Part shown: piece by piece, positions 4,348 through 31,942 of the stretch
How positions within the stretch are numbered: position 1 is the stretch's first letter
Layout: every line of letters begins with the position of its first letter
IMG/VR virus record: IMGVR_UViG_3300031840_000012
Coordinates: 1-34,839 of that record
Direction: 5' to 3' (one strand)
DNA length: 34,839 nt
Origin: a virus
Notes under the pieces: generated by a model
Databases searched by the model: none
Told to the model about the DNA's origin: nothing
What the model saw: only the letters and a program-made list of their open reading frames with translations
Made by a program: the position numbers and the translations under genes

Positions 4348-6396
4348 ATGAGACTAGTATTAGATGTAGAGAATACAACAACTAAGAGAGATGGTAAGTT
4401 ACATCTTGATCCCTTTGAGCCTACCAATACACTGACACAGGTAGGCATACAAAACCTAGACAATCCTGATGAGCAGTACGTTATGACGTTTGATCACGTT
4501 GACTACCAAGACATATCAGGTGACCGTGCTAGGCAACTACAAGCTGTATTAGATAGAGCTACACTATTAGTTATGCACAACGCACAGCACGATTTGATGT
4601 GGTTGTGGGCTAGTGGTTTTAAGTATGATGGTGACATATATGACACAATGTTAGCTGAATATGTACTACTTAGGGGTCAAAAACGTCCTCTCAGTCTTGA
4701 AGCGTGTGCAGAGTATCGTGAATTAGATCATCAGAAGGACGACACACTCAAGAAATATTACAAAGAAGGATACAATACGAATGAGATACCTATAAAAGAG
4801 CTAGATTACTATCTAAGATGTGACTTAAATGCCACTGCGTCATTATACCACAGCATAGAAAGAGACTATGATACTGCTGAGAGTCAGTCATTACACAACG
4901 TAAGAGACATAACATTTAAGGTGTGTAAGACACTCACTCGTATGTATATGAATGGTATCAAGATAGACACAGATGTCTTACATAGTGTACGCAAAGAGTT
5001 TGAAGACGAGAAGGTAGCAATAGAAGACAGACTTAATTTTACTATACGTAAATACATGGGAGATACACCTATCAATCTCAACAGTGGAGAACAAATGTCA
5101 AAGGTGTTATTTAGTCGCACCCCTCTTGATAAAAAAACATGGGTAGATACATTTGAAGACGTACCACCTGAAGAGTTTAAAGATACACTTAATACTTATA
5201 GTAATATATTAAAGAGAACTAAAGCTAGTATGTGTTTTAAATGTAAGGGTAAGGGTAAGGTATTTAAAATAAAGAAAGATGGTAATAACTTTAAAAAGCC
5301 TACTGCTTGTTTAACTTGTAATGGAAAGGGTTACATACTTACTGACACTGGGGTCGTGGCAGGTTTTAAACTACATCCTAGAGATAAGTCTTGGATAAAT
5401 GCTAATGGTTTTAAAACAGGTAAGGATAGTCTTGATGTTCTTATCAGTACAGCACGTAACAATAATATGAATGAGGCTGTATTGTTTATACAGGACGTTA
5501 AGAGATTATCTGCACTGACATCGTACTTATCTACATTTGTAGAGGGTATCAGTATCTTCACTAAGCCTGATGGTTTACTCCACGTTGGACTTACACAACA
5601 CATATCAGCTACAGGCAGGTTCAGTGGACGTAATCCTAATATGCAGAATATGCCTCGTGGTGGTACGTTTCCTGTAAAGAAAGTATTTGTATCACGATGG
5701 GAAGGTGGACACATCTTAGAGGCTGACTTTGCACAGCTAGAGTTTCGTGTAGCTGCACACCTATCTGAAGATAAGACAGCTATTGAAGAGATCAACACAG
5801 GGTTTGATGTACATAGTTATACAGCTAAAGTTATTACTGATGCAGGTCAGAAGACATCACGCCAAGAAGCGAAGGCTCATACATTTGCTCCTCTCTTTGG
5901 GGCAAGTGGTTGGGGTAGGAGTAGAGCAGAAGCTGCATACTATACACACTTCAATGAGAAGTATGAAGGTATATCTACATGGCACAAGTCTTTAGCTAAA
6001 GAAGCATTAGCTACCAAGAAGATAACTAATGTATCTGGTAGGCAGTATGCTTTTCCTTATGTAGAGAGAAGACCAAAGGGTAAGGTTACTCACTTTACTA
6101 TGATTAAGAACTACCCAGTACAAGGACTAGCTACAGCAGACATTGTGCCTGTAGTAGTAATGGAACTAGAAGAAAGACTAAGACCTTTGCAGTCTTGTCT
6201 TGTTAACACAGTACACGACTCAGCCGTAGTTGATGTACACCCAAACGAGAAGGAGTATGTACTACAAATTATAAATGATTTAAATAAAGATCTTGACAGT
6301 ATTATACACGAAGCATATAACATTAAGTTATGTGTGCCTATGCTATTAGAAGCAAAGATAGGTGATAATTGGCTTGACACAGTAGACGTAATATAG
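4348..6396 (+). CDS. polA: Family A DNA polymerase with 3'-5' exonuclease and DnaJ-like zinc insertion
   Basis: A longer in-frame start at 4306 lies inside the helicase gene; ATG 4348 with AAAGGA at 4335-4340 is the better choice (682 aa). The exonuclease domain shows Asp6-x-Glu8 (LVLDVEN), Asp82 (MHNAQHDLMW) and Tyr155xxxAsp159 (YLRCD). The polymerase shows TGRFSGRNPNMQN, motif A DFAQLEFR (Asp460), motif B RQEAKAHTF (Arg505, Lys509, Phe513) and motif C VHDS (His623, Asp624). Between INLNSGEQMSKVLF (242-255) and GFKTGKDSLDVL (from 354) is an insertion of roughly 100 residues where E. coli Pol I has a short loop. It holds two half zinc fingers, CFKCKGKGK (Cys296, Cys299) and CLTCNGKG (Cys321, Cys324), as in DnaJ. 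This architecture is reported for HMO-2011-type phages. It should replicate the genome with the upstream primase and helicase. Confidence 0.95.
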   Translation: MRLVLDVENTTTKRDGKLHLDPFEPTNTLTQVGIQNLDNPDEQYVMTFDHVDYQDISGDRARQLQAVLDRATLLVMHNAQHDLMWLWASGFKYDGDIYDTMLAEYVLLRGQKRPLSLEACAEYRELDHQKDDTLKKYYKEGYNTNEIPIKELDYYLRCDLNATASLYHSIERDYDTAESQSLHNVRDITFKVCKTLTRMYMNGIKIDTDVLHSVRKEFEDEKVAIEDRLNFTIRKYMGDTPINLNSGEQMSKVLFSRTPLDKKTWVDTFEDVPPEEFKDTLNTYSNILKRTKASMCFKCKGKGKVFKIKKDGNNFKKPTACLTCNGKGYILTDTGVVAGFKLHPRDKSWINANGFKTGKDSLDVLISTARNNNMNEAVLFIQDVKRLSALTSYLSTFVEGISIFTKPDGLLHVGLTQHISATGRFSGRNPNMQNMPRGGTFPVKKVFVSRWEGGHILEADFAQLEFRVAAHLSEDKTAIEEINTGFDVHSYTAKVITDAGQKTSRQEAKAHTFAPLFGASGWGRSRAEAAYYTHFNEKYEGISTWHKSLAKEALATKKITNVSGRQYAFPYVERRPKGKVTHFTMIKNYPVQGLATADIVPVVVMELEERLRPLQSCLVNTVHDSAVVDVHPNEKEYVLQIINDLNKDLDSIIHEAYNIKLCVPMLLEAKIGDNWLDTVDVI

Positions 6397-6403
6397 TAAA
6401 ACT

Positions 6404-21753: not shown

Positions 21754-24700
21754 TTATCCTTCTAGTTCTTCAATACGATCTAGTGCCGCATCTAGTTTGG
21801 TTGATAGTTCTTGTATTGATTTAACGAGGATAGGTACAAATTTGCTGTACTGGATGCCATACTGTTTACCATCCTCTGTAATACTTGTTGTTAAATTAGT
21901 TTTATCAGCTATTTTATGTCCATATTTTTCTTCAAGAACTTCTACGTCTTGTGCCAAGAAACCTATGTCAGACCAATCTTCTTTATGTGTTCCGTCATGT
22001 ACAACGTCATCTAAGTCTATAGTATCATCTGATAAATCTACATACTTACTTCTTTTATCCCAACGATATGTAACAGGCTCTAGTTCTTTAACAAAGTCTA
22101 AACCCATCTTAACTGGCTCTACATCTGTCTTATCTCGTTTGTCTGAAGCTACTGTCCAATCTACTTGGATGTGTGCGTTCTGTATGTTTTCATCGCCTAA
22201 ACAAATGTTATTATCCGCTGTTGTTATATTTCCTCCGGGACTTCCTGTAATCCCTGCATTAAAACCAAGTATTAAACAGTTTGCGGAACTAGTCATATTT
22301 CCACCAGCTTGTCCACCAACAATAGTTACACTAGAAACACTGCCAGTAAGATTATATCCTGAGTTGTCTCCCACCACCACACAGTTATTGCCTGTCATTG
22401 CACCACCTGCAGCCGCATTATCTCCGATAATAATACATTGCTGAGCTGTTGTTAAAGCGGCTGCTACATTATTACCAACAAATACATTTTCAGTTCCTGT
22501 TGTACAATTTACACCTGCGGCTTGACCAAGAGCAACATTACTAACGGCTGTAGTTAGATTGGCTAATGCACTTCTACCAACCGCTGTGTTCTGCGCTCCT
22601 GTAGTGTTGTCTAACAATGCCCCAGCACCAACTGCTGTGTTGTTATTTGCTGTAGTGTTAGCACCTAAAGCACCATTACCTAGTGCTGTGTTGTCTGAAC
22701 CTGTAGTGTTTGCATCTAATGCAGTATCGCCTAGTGCAGCATTTCTGTTTCCTGTTGTGTTTGCTACCATAGATGAATAACCTACGGCTACATTTTCTGC
22801 ACCTGTTGTTGATACTCTCATAGCCAAACCACCCACCGCAGTATTACGGGTTGCCGTTGTGCTAGTTGTTAATGCATCATATCCCATTGCTACGTTATAA
22901 CCATCTTGAGCACCACTTGGATTATGCGCTCCTAATGCGGCTCTACCAACAGCCACGTTTCTACTACCTGTGTCACTAGTTCCTAAAGCATTTATTCCAA
23001 CTGCTACATTATCTGAACCTGTAGTGTTTGCGTCTAAAGAATTTGTACCAACAGCTGTATTCTGAGCCCCTGTAGTGTTAGCCCCTAATGCTAAATCTCC
23101 AACGGCTACGTTGTTAGCTGCGGTAGTGTTGGACTGCAAAGTTCGTGTCCCCAACGCAGTGTTGTTTGTTCCTGTAGTGTTAGCTAACATCGAATCTTTT
23201 CCAAAAGCAGAGTTGGTATCGCCTGTAGTGTTTACTGCTAAAGCTTGAAAACCAACCGCAGTATTATTACCTGCTGTAGTATTAAGCTGTAAAGCATTTC
23301 TACCTATACCAACATTATTATCTGCTGTTGTGTTGTTTTGTAATGCAGCTTGTCCCATAGCAGTATTACTACTTCCTGAGGTATTGCTAGTTAAAGAATT
23401 ATCACCAACTCCAACATTATAATTACCATTTGTTTGAGCATCTAATGCATTTTGGCCAACTGCAACATTTTGAGTTCCAGTAGTGTTGGCTCCTAAAGCG
23501 TTGTAACCAACAGCCGTATTGCCAGCCGCTGTAGTATTAGCATCTAGTGCTTGCGCTCCAACTGCCGTATTCTGACCCCCTGTAGTAGTCGCCAACATAG
23601 AAGCATAACCAATAGCTGTGTTGTTACCTGATGTAGTAGCACTTGTTAAAGAATTTTGCCCAACAGCTACATTTTGCCCTCCTGTAGTTAGTGCATCACC
23701 AGACACAGCACCAATAAGAGTGTTAAGTGAGCCTGTAGTTATTAATTTACCTGCGTTAAGCCCTACTGCTGTGTTGTAAACATCTGTAGATGAACCATTA
23801 CTTTGAGTCATCAAAGCATTATTACCAATAGCAACTGAAAACTGTCCTGCAACTTCTGCTCCTAAAGCACCATTACCTACAGCAGTATTATTTGTACCTG
23901 TAGTATTAGCATCTAAAGCACTTTCACCTATTGCTACATTGGAAGAACCTGTTGTGTTTGCTCCTAAAGAAGATTTACCAACTGCTGTGTTGTTAGATGC
24001 TGTAGTGTTTGCGTCTAAAGCTCCATACCCAACTGCTGTGTTGTTATCTCCAGTCGTAATTGCAGTACCAGCTTCGTCACCCACAACAGTATTGTAGTTA
24101 CCGCCAGATTGTATTGAATTACCAGCATTTACCCCTGCTCTGAAGTTAGATGTTCCTGCTGAAGCAGTAATAATATCTGCACCATCTGCAAAGGTAACGT
24201 CTGCCGCAAAATTAGCCGCACCATCTACATCTATTGCATCAAGGTTTGATGTACCGTCTACATCTAAGTCACCATTGAAGTCTGCATTTCCTGCAAGAGT
24301 TAGAGTAGATGCCATATCTACTGCACCGTCAATGTCTACAACGTCTAAGTTAGTTGTACCGTCTACATCTATGTTGCCAGATATGTCTAATTCTGTGCCT
24401 ATTAATTTTTGTGTAAGTGTTACTACACCGTCACTTGCAATGGCGATTGCATCTGCATCTCCAACTGAACCAATTTGTCCAGCATTAGCAATAGTAATAC
24501 CACCACTATGAATGTCTCTACCAGTAAAGGTTGCAACACCATCAACTTGTAGTGTTGATGCCATATCTACAGCACCGTCTATATCAACTATATCTAAGTT
24601 GGCTGTACCATCTATATCTATGTTACCAGAAATATCAAGAGAACCAGCTTGTAGTGCGCCATCAGTAACAGTAAGATTTCCTGTTGAAGATCCTGTAGCT

Positions 24701-26478
24701 GTTGTTGTACCTACTACAAATGTATCTGCACTTTCATCCCACATAAAGATAGCGTTGTCGCCTGTTGAACCTCGTTCAATAACAATACCGCTGTCGTTAG
24801 CGTTAGATGTTGCACCGTTGTTAAGTTCAATAAGGTTATCTGCCACTACCATATTAGTTGTAGAAACTGTAGTAGTTGTGCCGTTGACAGTAAAATCACC
24901 TGTTACTGTAACATTGTCTCCAAAAGTAACTTCAGATGTACCGTGTCCTATAGTAATAGCTGTACCAGATATACCTGTACCAATAGATACAGACTCACTG
25001 CTGTTACCAGTATCAATTATAAGATAAGCATCTGACCCTTGTTTAATTGTAAGGGCTGTAGCTGAGTTATCAGATACTGCTACATTAATGTCTGTGCCGT
25101 CAGCACTTATTGAATCAAGGGCAATATCTCCAACATTTGTTATAGCATTATCACCAAAAGATGTAGCCCCTAGTGTAACAGAACCTGTTGTTGATAAGGC
25201 ACTAGATCCTATATCTATAGACCCAAACCCAGATGTAATAGATCCTGAGTTTAATGCACCTGTTGTAACAATATTACCGCCACCAACATTGTGACTAGAG
25301 AAGTATGTAGACACAGTATCTACGTTAGTCATACGCATTGTGCCAGCGTCATTGATGAGGATACCGTCACCTGAAGCTACGGCAGTTGTGCCTCTTGATG
25401 TACCGCCATCAATTAAGTTAATCTCTGCTGCAGTTGCGGATACTGCTGTACTACCTAAAGTAAGCTGTCCATCAGGAACAATAAGTCCTGCTGCACCGTT
25501 GAAGATCAAGTCATCTGCTGATGTATCCCAAGTTAGGTTGGCTGATGCTGTATCACCGTAAAGTATTACATCGTAGCCTTGGTCATTAGCACCTACAGTA
25601 AGTGTAGAATCTAGCTGTACGGCTCCGTCAATGTCTACTGCGTCAAGGTTTGTTGTTCCATCTACATCAAGGTCACCATTAAAATCTACGTTACCTGCAA
25701 CAGCCAGTGTTGTAGCCATATCAACTGCGCCATCAATATCTACAACATCTAAGTTTGTAGTACCATCAACGTCTATGTCTCCTGAGATGTCTAAGGAAGC
25801 TGCAGCTATTTCACCACTAACATCTACTGCACCATTTATATCTATGGTTGTAGCGTTTATTTCAATCTCTGTGTCAGATACTAAGTCAAGTACACCATCT
25901 GCAGATTGATGTATGTATGTACCACTGTCACCAAATTGTAATTGTCTAGTGCTATTTAATAATATACCTGTGTCAGCAACGTGGGTTAAAGTAACATCAT
26001 TGTCAACACCCATACCTAATACAGCCGCATCACTATCTAATTTTAAATCATTGCTAACAAGCACGGCTGTAGATGCGTTAATATCTACTGTTGCTTCACC
26101 ATCTATTCTAAGAACACCATCAGAACTTTGGTGTATAAAACTAGCAGTATCACCAAATTGTATTTTTTCAGTAGAAGCAATAAGTATATCATCAGAAAAC
26201 TCAAAGTAGTCTTCGTCTTCCATCCATTTAAGTACACCATCATTAGTTTCACCGTCAAAGGTAATCGTAATGTCTGTACCTGCAGTAGCGGCCCCAAAGG
26301 TAAGCGTGTTACCTAATAATGATGTAATAGGTCCACCTTCTGCTGCTGTACCATCGTGAGTGTGTCCTGAACTTGATGCAAAAGCAGCTAAGAGTTGGTC
26401 AAACTCATTATTTGTATGTGCCGCAGTTATGGTATCTCCATCTGCGTAAGTTGATTGTCTTGTATAGGTTGCACCCAT
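21754..26478 (-). CDS. Tail fibre with beta-roll repeats and S74 self-cleaving chaperone
   Basis: This is the 1574-aa host-contact protein. A short N-terminal domain (ATYTRQSTYADGDTITAAHT to GHTHDG, about 1-50) resembles marine podovirus fibre heads and likely attaches to the tail. A glycine/aspartate-rich shaft (50-790) contains internal duplications. About 37 units of roughly 17 residues follow (about 793-1435), with an N-T-A-V-G-x-x-A-L-x-A-N-T-T-G consensus like YadA-type head repeats. The C-terminal 130 residues from Ser1445 (SDKRDKTDVEPV, PVTYRWD, DIGFLAQDVE, QYSKFVPILVKSIQEL) are a Peptidase S74 intramolecular chaperone. Members trimerise the fibre and then cut themselves off just before the Ser-Asp, here predicted after Ala1444. 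The start overlaps the preceding gene by one base. Confidence 0.9.
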   Translation of the reverse strand: MGATYTRQSTYADGDTITAAHTNNEFDQLLAAFASSSGHTHDGTAAEGGPITSLLGNTLTFGAATAGTDITITFDGETNDGVLKWMEDEDYFEFSDDILIASTEKIQFGDTASFIHQSSDGVLRIDGEATVDINASTAVLVSNDLKLDSDAAVLGMGVDNDVTLTHVADTGILLNSTRQLQFGDSGTYIHQSADGVLDLVSDTEIEINATTIDINGAVDVSGEIAAASLDISGDIDVDGTTNLDVVDIDGAVDMATTLAVAGNVDFNGDLDVDGTTNLDAVDIDGAVQLDSTLTVGANDQGYDVILYGDTASANLTWDTSADDLIFNGAAGLIVPDGQLTLGSTAVSATAAEINLIDGGTSRGTTAVASGDGILINDAGTMRMTNVDTVSTYFSSHNVGGGNIVTTGALNSGSITSGFGSIDIGSSALSTTGSVTLGATSFGDNAITNVGDIALDSISADGTDINVAVSDNSATALTIKQGSDAYLIIDTGNSSESVSIGTGISGTAITIGHGTSEVTFGDNVTVTGDFTVNGTTTTVSTTNMVVADNLIELNNGATSNANDSGIVIERGSTGDNAIFMWDESADTFVVGTTTATGSSTGNLTVTDGALQAGSLDISGNIDIDGTANLDIVDIDGAVDMASTLQVDGVATFTGRDIHSGGITIANAGQIGSVGDADAIAIASDGVVTLTQKLIGTELDISGNIDVDGTTNLDVVDIDGAVDMASTLTLAGNADFNGDLDVDGTSNLDAIDVDGAANFAADVTFADGADIITASAGTSNFRAGVNAGNSIQSGGNYNTVVGDEAGTAITTGDNNTAVGYGALDANTTASNNTAVGKSSLGANTTGSSNVAIGESALDANTTGTNNTAVGNGALGAEVAGQFSVAIGNNALMTQSNGSSTDVYNTAVGLNAGKLITTGSLNTLIGAVSGDALTTGGQNVAVGQNSLTSATTSGNNTAIGYASMLATTTGGQNTAVGAQALDANTTAAGNTAVGYNALGANTTGTQNVAVGQNALDAQTNGNYNVGVGDNSLTSNTSGSSNTAMGQAALQNNTTADNNVGIGRNALQLNTTAGNNTAVGFQALAVNTTGDTNSAFGKDSMLANTTGTNNTALGTRTLQSNTTAANNVAVGDLALGANTTGAQNTAVGTNSLDANTTGSDNVAVGINALGTSDTGSRNVAVGRAALGAHNPSGAQDGYNVAMGYDALTTSTTATRNTAVGGLAMRVSTTGAENVAVGYSSMVANTTGNRNAALGDTALDANTTGSDNTALGNGALGANTTANNNTAVGAGALLDNTTGAQNTAVGRSALANLTTAVSNVALGQAAGVNCTTGTENVFVGNNVAAALTTAQQCIIIGDNAAAGGAMTGNNCVVVGDNSGYNLTGSVSSVTIVGGQAGGNMTSSANCLILGFNAGITGSPGGNITTADNNICLGDENIQNAHIQVDWTVASDKRDKTDVEPVKMGLDFVKELEPVTYRWDKRSKYVDLSDDTIDLDDVVHDGTHKEDWSDIGFLAQDVEVLEEKYGHKIADKTNLTTSITEDGKQYGIQYSKFVPILVKSIQELSTKLDAALDRIEELEG
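22170..24100 (-). repeat. About 37 coding repeats of ~51 bp (17 aa) in the tail fibre
   Basis: The fibre's distal part is a tandem array in which nearly every 17 residues repeat an NxAxG...L.ANTTG pattern. Examples are NNTAVGYGALDANTTAS, NNTAVGKSSLGANTTGS and SNVAIGESALDANTTGT. Units degenerate toward the C-terminus (CIIIGDNAAAGGAMTG, CVVVGDNSGYNLTG), and a few are lengthened by 4 to 6 residues. In YadA-like heads such units form left-handed beta-rolls. The array ends just before the S74 chaperone. My count is by eye and may be off by one or two units. Confidence 0.8.
24180..25795 (-). repeat. Duplicated DISGxIDVDGTxNLDxVDIDGAVDM modules in the fibre shaft
   Basis: A module encoding DISG(D/N)ID(V/I)DGT, then (T/A)NLDxVDIDGAVDM, occurs at about 25725-25795, 24560-24640 and 24320-24385. 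A related DVDGTxNLDAxDxDGA unit follows two of them, at about 25625-25680 and 24215-24265. Each is followed by a short variable strand segment. Copies are similar at the base level, which points to internal duplication or recombination between them. They probably form repeated beta strands of the fibre shaft. Boundaries are approximate. Confidence 0.6.
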
Positions 26479-29709: not shown

Positions 29710-30783
29710 TTATGCTGCGTTATATTTGGCAGTAACGATAGCTTCAGGACGAAGTATCTTTCTACCATATAAGTGCATACCACGAACAATGTCAGCAAAG
29801 CTGTCAGGATCACGATATGATTCGGTTTTGTTGATCTGCTCTGCAGTAGCAACAGCAGAATCATGTCCAGCTACAATTACACCGTAGTTAGCAATTTGGT
29901 TCGCTGTACCAGAAGTACCCGGACCTGTACCAACTGCAGGTAAGTTGCTTGAACTGTATACTCTGAAACCGCCTAAGTTGTTAACAACTAGACCATTACG
30001 TATACTTCCTGATGCTCCGAAGTCTGCATTGTGAAGACGAGAATCTTCATCACGCAACATCTCCATGAACACTGGATCTACAACTAACCAACGTCCACCT
30101 GAATCAACTTGCTGTTGATCAAGTAGTCTAGCCATACGAGACACAACCATCATTGGTGAGGCTGTAGCTGTTGGCAAGGATGTTGCACCCGGCATACGTG
30201 GAGTCAGAGGAATCGAGTGAGTCCCTGCTGAACTAGTAGTAATGTTACCGAAGTCACCTTTTACTAGTTTCATGCTGGAAAGAAGTTCATCTGTTCCTGC
30301 AGTTGAAACTGCCACAGTACCATTTACAGTTGCGTTAACTGTGTCTGGTGATCCGTGAATTGATGATTGTTTAAAACCTGACAAGTATCCCAATACATCT
30401 TGGTCGTACTGGTCAGCCAAACGATATGCTGCTCTATCAGAAGCAAGTTGCATAAAGTTTACGTGGCTGTGTGCCTCTTCAATGTCGTCAATCTTAAAAG
30501 CAAAGTAGTTTGATTTGTCGATTGTCAACGAGAAGTCCTCATCGTCAAGGTCTTGTGGTAGAATAGTTGTACCACGAGCATATGCCTTAACTGAGATTTC
30601 AGGTTCTTTTATTATTTTAACAGTATCGCCTTGTGACGCAATTTCACCGAAGTAATCAGAGTTAGTAATATCTCCAACTACGGTAGACTTGCGAAAAGCA
30701 ACCTGTACTTTCTTCGAGTAGATAATCGAAGAAAAGTTTCCGTTTGGCAGGTTACCATAACCTGCTGCTGTTGAAAAAGCCAT
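29710..30783 (-). CDS. Major capsid protein (HK97-fold coat)
   Basis: The 357-aa protein sits between scaffold and tail genes and has a typical coat composition. The N-terminal part (SSIIYSKKVQVAFRKSTVVG, then GEIASQGDTVKIIKEPEISV) and the segment LTIDKSNYFAFKIDDIEEAH followed by ASDRAAYRLADQYDQDVLGYL are the usual N-arm/E-loop and spine-helix region of podovirus coats. WLVVDPVFMEMLRDEDSRLH, then GFRVYSSSNLP and ATAEQINKTESYRDPDSFAD are the A-domain and C-terminal features. The ATG has a strong AGGAGG nine bases upstream and is served by the promoter at about 31006-31034, as expected for the most abundant virion protein. Confidence 0.92.
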   Translation of the reverse strand: MAFSTAAGYGNLPNGNFSSIIYSKKVQVAFRKSTVVGDITNSDYFGEIASQGDTVKIIKEPEISVKAYARGTTILPQDLDDEDFSLTIDKSNYFAFKIDDIEEAHSHVNFMQLASDRAAYRLADQYDQDVLGYLSGFKQSSIHGSPDTVNATVNGTVAVSTAGTDELLSSMKLVKGDFGNITTSSAGTHSIPLTPRMPGATSLPTATASPMMVVSRMARLLDQQQVDSGGRWLVVDPVFMEMLRDEDSRLHNADFGASGSIRNGLVVNNLGGFRVYSSSNLPAVGTGPGTSGTANQIANYGVIVAGHDSAVATAEQINKTESYRDPDSFADIVRGMHLYGRKILRPEAIVTAKYNAA

Positions 30784-30999
30784 GTTAAATTCCTCCTATG
30801 GATGTTTGGCTTACGAATTAAGCTAAACGGTAGTAATAAGAGGCTGAACGGTCAGGGTGCAATTCAAGCAAGACTAGCTATTCTTAACTTTTATTGGGCC
30901 TTTGGTATCAGGTAGGTCTTATTGATTAGTTTAGACTTTGTGTTTAAAATATAAAACTGTGGGTAGCTTATTTAAAAGGGCCACTAATTTTTATAGGTA
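30784..30999 (-). other. Leader of the capsid transcript
   Basis: No gene is evident in this stretch. If the promoter at 31006-31034 is used, this is a 5' leader of roughly 215 bases on the capsid mRNA. It contains a near-palindrome at 30870-30885 (AAGACTAGCTATTCTT, one mismatched pair) and the capsid ribosome binding site AGGAGG. A long leader with a strong ribosome binding site suggests RNA-level control or stabilisation of capsid mRNA; no known riboswitch class is recognised. Confidence 0.45.
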
Positions 31000-31005
31000 G
31001 TACTA

Positions 31006-31034
31006 GTTATATCAAAGTGCGACAATTTTGTCAA
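31006..31034 (-). promoter_or_regulatory. Sigma70-type promoter for the capsid gene
   Basis: Read on the minus strand, TTGACA (complement of 31029-31034) is separated by exactly 17 bases from TATAAC (complement of 31006-31011). This is a perfect -35 and a 5/6 match to the -10 with ideal spacing, in the largest non-coding gap of the window and pointing at the major capsid gene. Initiation would be near 30999. Because the left edge of the element is just after the scaffold stop codon, it should boost capsid and tail genes independently of read-through from scaffold. Confidence 0.75.
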
Positions 31035-31040
31035 CACTTT
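31014..31040 (-). promoter_or_regulatory. Interrupted palindrome overlapping the capsid promoter -35 box
   Basis: On the plus strand AAAGTG (31014-31019), C, GACAA, TT, TTGTC, AA, CACTTT (31035-31040) forms an 11-pair inverted repeat with a small asymmetric bulge and a two-base centre. It covers the -35 box and spacer of the capsid promoter, so it could be an operator for a phage or host regulator. As RNA on the plus strand it would be an AT-rich hairpin followed by a T-run, so it could also act as a terminator against antisense transcription. Confidence 0.5.
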
Positions 31041-31042
31041 TT

Positions 31043-31942
31043 TTATCGGGCTGCACCTGTCATATCGTAGACAAATCGCCCTGTACGCATCGCTTCCATT
31101 ATTTCATCGGAACGATCTTCGTATTCTTTAGCTGACATTCTATTTACGTCAGACTCTGTAATTTTACCACTAACATCATCTGCATCTACAGAGGTACGTC
31201 CTTTTTTAGTGACAATAGCTGTAGCTGCTTTTTTAGCTGATGCTTTTTTTGTTTTGTTAACTATGTTGTTGTCTGCTTTGTAAAGATCAATTACTCGTGC
31301 TACAGAAGCAGGATCGTCTTCATTTACATATAAGGCATCTTTAACCCATTTAGGTTGTACATCTACCCAATCATGGAATGCATCACTCTCTTTTAACTCA
31401 TCAAAGTCAGAATGTATAGCTCGTATTTCTGCTTCAGCCTTAGATCTATTAGCATTTGCTGCAATTTCATCTAGACGAGTAAGCCTTTCATCGGCTGCAT
31501 CATACATAGCTTTAGCTTCTTTTTTAGCTAGAGCAGCTACAATGTTAGCTACATCAGGATATTTTTCTTTCCATGCTTCTAGCTCAGCTTCAGTTGTAGG
31601 AGCAGTAAAGTTTGAAGAGTCAGATAGTTTAGCTTCTAAAGTTTTAACTTGTTCAACCAATTTGTTCTGGTGTCTACGAAGATCATCATACCGCTTCTTG
31701 TACGTTTTTTCTTCTCGTGTTAACTCTGTATCGTCATCTGTTTTAGCTTCTACTTTTTCTGCTTCTTTAGTAGCTTCTACTTTTTCTTCGACTTCTACTT
31801 CTTCTGTTTGTTCTTTACGAGAGTTAAGAAGTTCTTCTATTTCTTTTTCTTCTTTTTCTGCTCTGCGTCTATTTGCATTAGAGTGTTTGCTGTCAACAAA
31901 GCCAGCAGTCTTAGGTGTTTCCATAGTTGATAGTTCGGGCAT
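31043..31942 (-). CDS. Scaffolding protein
   Basis: The 299-aa protein precedes the major capsid gene and has the composition expected of a scaffold: highly charged, almost free of cysteine, and strongly helical. A long E/K-rich stretch (about 20-75) leads into a coiled coil (KRYDDLRRHQNKLVEQVKTL, then EAKLSDS). The middle part (PTTEAELEAWKEKYPDVANI, then VAALAKKEAKAMYDAADERL) and the end (DRSDEIMEAMRTGRFVYDMT) resemble scaffolds of other marine podoviruses. It would direct procapsid assembly through its C-terminus and then leave. The ATG has AAAGGA upstream. Confidence 0.82.
   Translation of the reverse strand: MPELSTMETPKTAGFVDSKHSNANRRRAEKEEKEIEELLNSRKEQTEEVEVEEKVEATKEAEKVEAKTDDDTELTREEKTYKKRYDDLRRHQNKLVEQVKTLEAKLSDSSNFTAPTTEAELEAWKEKYPDVANIVAALAKKEAKAMYDAADERLTRLDEIAANANRSKAEAEIRAIHSDFDELKESDAFHDWVDVQPKWVKDALYVNEDDPASVARVIDLYKADNNIVNKTKKASAKKAATAIVTKKGRTSVDADDVSGKITESDVNRMSAKEYEDRSDEIMEAMRTGRFVYDMTGAAR

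Follow-up and report, generated by a model that had tools for sequence, protein, structure and literature searches.

A conserved promoter and a structured leader RNA upstream of the coat gene in HMO-2011-like phages

HMO-2011-like phages are widespread in marine metagenomes, and one of them raises the question of how its coat gene is expressed: the gene is preceded by a 259-nt gap containing a near-consensus promoter, a palindrome, and a long leader. In the open-access literature, we found nothing on late-gene control in these phages and no paper on HMO-2011-type promoters or leader RNAs. To our knowledge, structured RNA control of a capsid gene is rare among tailed dsDNA phages. The window analyzed here is a whole 34.8-kb virus record (34,839 nt) belonging to an HMO-2011-like podovirus. 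Replication genes lie on its plus strand, which encodes integrase, helicase, DNA polymerase, endonuclease I, and ribonucleotide reductase. Its minus strand carries the head and tail genes as a block. The major capsid (coat) protein gene is at 29710-30783 on the minus strand and matches PHROG 267. Its product is of the HMO-2011 type, being about 76% identical to the HMO-2011 coat protein and within the 74-77% identity range found for Puniceispirillum phage HMO-2011 and the Roseobacter phages CRP-1, CRP-9, CRP-13, and CRP-345. The gene on the other side of the gap (31043-31942, minus strand) is labeled scaffold-like from its position alone, as its match, PHROG 13678, is of unknown function. About 18 kb of same-strand genes for tail and internal proteins follow downstream. 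This block includes a 1574-aa protein (21754-26478, minus strand), probably a tail fiber, that contains long TAVG/NNTA-type repeats and carries a Peptidase_S74 chaperone domain at its C terminus.

The coat promoter and its likely sigma factor

On the minus strand, the gap opens with the promoter straight after the stop codon of the scaffold-like gene, 3 nt from the outer end of the palindrome. TTGACA-17-TATAAC is present at 31034-31006, 222 nt upstream of the coat gene, as the sequence-only reading had stated. The -35 hexamer TTGACA occupies 31029-31034 and the -10 hexamer TATAAC occupies 31006-31011, placing the predicted transcription start, judged only from the -10 position, at 30999. We found three TTGACA-N15-18-TANAAC sites in the window, where 0.23 would be expected by chance. 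The earlier claim that the coat site is the only one in a non-coding gap is nearly right, the complication being a second consensus site, TTGACA-N17-TAAAAC at 6374-6402 on the plus strand, which runs across the end of the DNA polymerase gene. One further consensus site lies inside that gene. Relatives carry TTGACACAAAAGACGTAGC..TATAAC on the plus strand in sequence similar to that at 6374-6402 of the window. An intrinsic terminator (a G+C-rich stem and T run behind a gene on the same strand) was also considered for the coat site and rejected: the T run is on the plus strand, where the region codes no gene, and a scan of the window found no such terminator there.

To place the promoter among relatives, we first retrieved 80 virus contigs that code for close coat relatives, and four further scans brought the comparison to about 400 loci. 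The motif TTGACA-N16/17-TATAAC occurred in 74 of the first 80 relatives. Most of the remainder were truncated upstream and, where the upstream DNA was complete, the site was found in all but one. Across the clades of the window and HMO-2011, 200 of the 210 loci with enough upstream DNA have the site right after the scaffold-like gene, which strongly supports reading it as the capsid promoter. Conservation to this extent makes a chance origin of the site untenable. The -35 hexamer is invariant in relatives. The spacer is nearly always 16 nt, with 17 nt in the window's own clade (L001-L004). The -10 hexamer reads TATAAC in 202 of 206 promoter-bearing loci of these two clades, and its last base is C at every one of the 288 promoter-bearing loci; the E. 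coli -10 consensus ends in T. Cultured isolates fit the same picture, with TTGACA-N16/17-TATAAC in HMO-2011, CRP-1, CRP-9, CRP-13, and CRP-345, and a -10 of TACAAC or TAAAAC in CRP-207, CRP-2, and CRP-603. The CRP-207 clade has TTGACA-N16 followed by TAAAAC or TACAAC, in the CRP-235 clade the site reads TGnTATAAT and its -35 is poorer, and the coat locus of the soil phiM6 clade has no recognisable promoter site.

The cultured hosts of coat relatives are largely Alphaproteobacteria. In Caulobacter, the RpoD consensus is TTGaCgS / GCtANAWC (PMC8144410), and the -10 element GCTANAWC is fitted by TATAAC, TAAAAC, and TACAAC alike. The phage sites have the attributes of an alphaproteobacterial RpoD (sigma-70-type) promoter, namely a -35 of TTGAC, a spacer of 16-18 nt, and a -10 of TATAAT or TANAWC. 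They resemble published promoters of this kind (PMC8144410) in the TTGAC core and the terminal C of TANAWC, and differ from those of Caulobacter in having a full TTGACA that is near-invariant over the whole phage group and a spacing fixed at 16 nt (17 nt in the window clade). Promoters of the same kind occur 1 to 6 times per genome, while a reversed control pattern gave none. Given this recurrence and the fit to the RpoD -10 element, the coat promoter is most likely one of a small set read by host RpoD.

The palindrome over the -35

The sequence-only reading had proposed that a 27-base palindrome over the -35 and spacer is an operator, where a repressor or activator of phage or host origin would switch coat transcription. 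The palindrome (31014-31040) exists, yet it is imperfect: its letters, AAAGTG-TT-GACA-AAAT-TGTC-G-CACTTT at 31040-31014, leave an asymmetric 2x1 interior loop. In favor of an operator, the dyad as single-stranded DNA has a folding energy of -5.8 kcal/mol (z -2.9), which 98% of shuffles fail to reach (4 of 200 were as good). Its conservation in relatives with the same promoter had been set beforehand as the refuting test, and this conservation is absent. Identical AAAGTG/CACTTT arms are shared by the window with L001-L004, its nearest relatives, and with no other relative. In other relatives having the same promoter, the spacer varies freely and any dyads differ in sequence and register. Moreover, the window holds no further copy of the palindrome within 3 mismatches.

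In relatives, dyads of other sequence were mildly over-represented around the -35, with a mean best stem of 5.17 compared to 4.85 +/- 0.09 when spacers were swapped. DNA folding of this region in relatives averaged z -0.73 +/- 0.20 versus +0.33 for upstream coding DNA, and the swap control for energy was borderline. The dyads behind this weak excess change in sequence and register, one example being CTGTTGA..TCAACAG in L029. The trend does not support one conserved operator, and we rejected that reading because dyad sequence is unconserved among relatives with the same promoter. That the palindrome nevertheless acts as an operator in the window appears highly improbable.

A structured RNA leader

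Side-by-side comparison of the leaders revealed conserved blocks separated by variable stems. The 222-nt leader of the window can be drawn as hairpin P1, a nested P2-P3-P4 arm, hairpin P5, and then the ribosome-binding site, all on the minus strand. P1 (30959-30984; GUGG-CC-CUU..AAG-CUAC-CCAC) consists of an outer stem of 4-9 pairs that covaries, an internal loop CC/CUAC, and a short inner hairpin. The core P2-P3-P4 (30834-30923) was captured in two covariance models, R1 and R2, and scores 61.6 bits in the window (E 3.6e-15). Within the core, P2 (AAGA/UCUU) is followed by an internal loop (A)CUAC/CC and then P2b (C-U-G/C-A-G). P3 (UAGG/CCUA) is followed by an internal loop CC/CAC, which is CC/ACUAC in the CRP-207 clade, and then by P4, whose length varies. 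An internal loop of the CC/CUAC type thus recurs in the leader. The apical part of P4 (30870-30885) is AAGA-AUAGCUAG-UCUU, and its loop contains the palindrome UAGCUA. This is the second near-palindrome reported earlier at 30885-30870, which is present but is the apical hairpin of a covarying RNA structure rather than an operator. P5 (30804-30828; GUUU-A-GCUU / AAGC-C-AAAC) is predicted from a single-sequence fold and conserved letters. The ribosome-binding site AUAGGAGG lies at 30792-30799.

Support for this structure comes from covariation. Folded by itself, the window leader shows no unusual stability (z -1.24). We scored the structural plan against a MAFFT alignment of 46 sequences that used no structural information. 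In the core, 81.9% of cells were paired versus 67.1 +/- 1.0 in shuffled alignments, and 193 double-sided changes, seen in 21 of 24 pairs, compared with 78.6 +/- 6.5. The covariation score was 0.405 versus 0.175 shuffled, and fell to 0.045-0.111 when partners were slid by one to three columns. Pair types were varied, including G-C, A-U, and C-G at one P2b pair. P1, picked by motif letters alone, was 66.7% paired versus 44.4 +/- 1.8 shuffled, with 150 double-sided changes versus 70 +/- 6. These covariation figures are not probabilities, since some of the aligned sequences had served to draw up the plan and the shuffles ignore relatedness. The effect size and the variety of pair types nonetheless leave little doubt that the leaders share a conserved RNA structure. 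G-U pairs outnumbered A-C mismatches by 70:37, and by 118:48 on the fitted alignment. This bias implies that the structure exists on the coat-coding strand, as RNA. The leader therefore shows compensatory pairing, on the coding strand, before one gene, as would a structured cis-acting leader.

The RNA is tightly linked to the coat gene. In the window, model R1 matched the leader alone. Among 93 varied loci it hit 78, and every hit lay immediately ahead of the coat gene and on its strand. One clear copy each was found in 14 phage records and contigs. A core motif scan of all virus contigs identified 118, with the coat gene 81-166 nt downstream in 117 of them; the last contig ends 76 nt after the motif. 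The promoter was present in 114 of the 118. Model R2 picked up 52 of the 80 CRP-235-clade loci, as well as most of those in the Rhizobium phage clade, including phiM6 and RHph_N3_13. The weakest matches in these two clades had E near 0.01, and all were at the expected place. From these comparisons, almost every related ocean virus keeps the leader ahead of the coat gene, and soil relatives keep it in part. The soil phages retain the core RNA and have no recognisable promoter, so the two do not form a strict unit. The element is absent from the pelagiphages HTVC033P and HTVC115P, which have 16-58 nt between the two genes. Coat relatives from Vibrio, Aeromonas, and Pseudoalteromonas (gammaproteobacterial hosts) lack the whole insert, with gaps of 16-58 nt as well. 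Phage isolate ctYwJ313 has an insertion in its coat leader, between the promoter and the RNA core: a gene (L086:1815-2384) whose annotation is HNH-motif endonuclease and which has no Pfam match at E 0.001.

We considered whether the RNA belongs to a known family or occurs elsewhere. Leaders from the window's relatives and from cultured and soil phages had no match in Rfam 15 at gathering score, and the sub-threshold hits, Ref66 and ACEA_U3, were attributed to chance. Weak secondary hits (E 0.01-0.3) were rejected as extra copies elsewhere in the genomes, the one inspected (G007:50455) being a gene end with an ordinary terminator. Four exact motif hits in bacterial genomes were likewise rejected; none was near a coat gene, and the two that were G+C-rich lay in near-identical coding-like sequence. 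As far as these tools show, the leader represents a new family within a known general kind of structured RNA.

Candidate functions of the leader

Several roles could be imagined for such a leader. A leader peptide or attenuator was rejected, since no leader ORF is conserved, and ATG is under-represented in leaders (86 versus 124). A translational switch would have the core segment CCUCUUAU at 30843-30836 act as an anti-Shine-Dalgarno sequence for AUAGGAGG, the two forming 8 pairs in the window fold. This complementarity did not exceed that of swapped pairs in the window or HMO clades, and did so only in the CRP-207 clade. Core and ribosome-binding site covary in that clade alone, so a switch lacks covariation support in most clades; the fold of the window would permit one.

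The main rival to cis control of the coat level is that the leader is a nascent antitermination RNA that binds RNA polymerase and permits read-through of the roughly 18 kb downstream, in the manner of HK022 put. The put RNAs are about 70 nt with two bulged stem-loops, occur in early operons in two copies (putL just behind its promoter, and putR), and confer factor-independent antitermination via the beta-prime zinc-binding domain (PMC9378689). Like put, the leader is a structured RNA with bulged stems at a phage transcript start, in cis; it begins within about 15-25 nt of the predicted start, with a long same-strand gene block behind it. Unlike put, it is larger, exists as a single copy before a late structural gene, and follows the coat gene rather than an early promoter. 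Soil phages with the core and no recognisable promoter count against antitermination, as does ctYwJ313, where the HNH-annotated gene parts promoter from core and the core stays beside the coat gene. We consider antitermination unlikely.

The loops of P4 point in another direction. Across relatives, they are often self-complementary tetramers, mostly GGCC but also GCGC, AGCT, GTAC, and GATC. Such a tetramer was found in 29 of 33 distinct hexaloop hairpins versus 13.4 +/- 2.1 by column shuffle, which hints at pairing between two RNA molecules in many, although not all, members. On this basis, the leader might mainly be a stand-alone processed non-coding RNA that works in trans or in multimeric form, its P4 loops kissing between molecules, with packaging or assembly as possible settings. 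The ornate RNAs GOLLD, ROOL, and OLE, which form homo-oligomers in solved structures and are partly phage-borne (PMC12286853), offer a parallel. The leader differs from them in being much smaller, forming the 5' end of the coat transcript, and having no Rfam match, with oligomers hinted at only by its loops. However, about one third of distinct P4 loops are not self-complementary (short loops, GGCA, and GGCG), and in some marine and several soil members only a few pairs of P4 are left, so loop-loop pairing is not the general function. Action in trans also requires no fixed place beside the coat gene. We therefore regard a mainly stand-alone RNA as very unlikely.

The reading we prefer, and judge probable, is that an RpoD-type coat promoter feeds a cis-acting 5' leader RNA that sets coat expression, with the -35 palindrome not being a control element. 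Across the loci compared, the promoter is conserved, the RNA structure covaries, and the element is single-copy and linked exclusively to the coat gene. The structured leader itself is well supported by these alignments; its function is what we infer from them. Under this model, the promoter after the scaffold-like gene would give the coat gene its own strong transcript, which host RNA polymerase, presumably with RpoD, would start near 30999. The 222-nt untranslated leader would be made first, folding into P1, the P2-P3-P4 arm, and P5 ahead of the ribosome-binding site. Most likely, it would set the amount of coat protein by controlling how well the coat mRNA is translated or how stable it is, perhaps with the help of a protein recognizing the repeated CC/CUAC internal loop. 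Together, promoter and leader would uncouple coat expression from the scaffold-like gene. A more specific version is rather unlikely: a new RNA family of HMO-2011-like and some Rhizobium phages, whose CC/CUAC loops are bound by the coat or scaffold protein and whose P4 copies pair in many members, coupling coat synthesis to head assembly.

Autoregulated genes are known to carry structured 5' leaders, as in ribosomal-protein operons and T4 gene 32. Like these, the coat leader is single, conserved, and structured, and it precedes one highly expressed gene; unlike them, it has no known ligand, no Rfam match, and a phage coat gene downstream. For HMO-2011-like phages, the results supply a defined coat promoter and a strongly covarying leader missing from Rfam 15. 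The leader could serve as an annotation marker for the group, and is a candidate RNA module in ocean and soil phages. Because members such as HMO-2011, the CRP phages, and Sinorhizobium phage phiM6 are cultured, these proposals are directly testable. Finally, one locus (L062) encodes a coat protein 81% identical to that of the window, without the consensus promoter and with a leader resembling the CRP-738 type, a combination that points to recombination between leader and coat gene.
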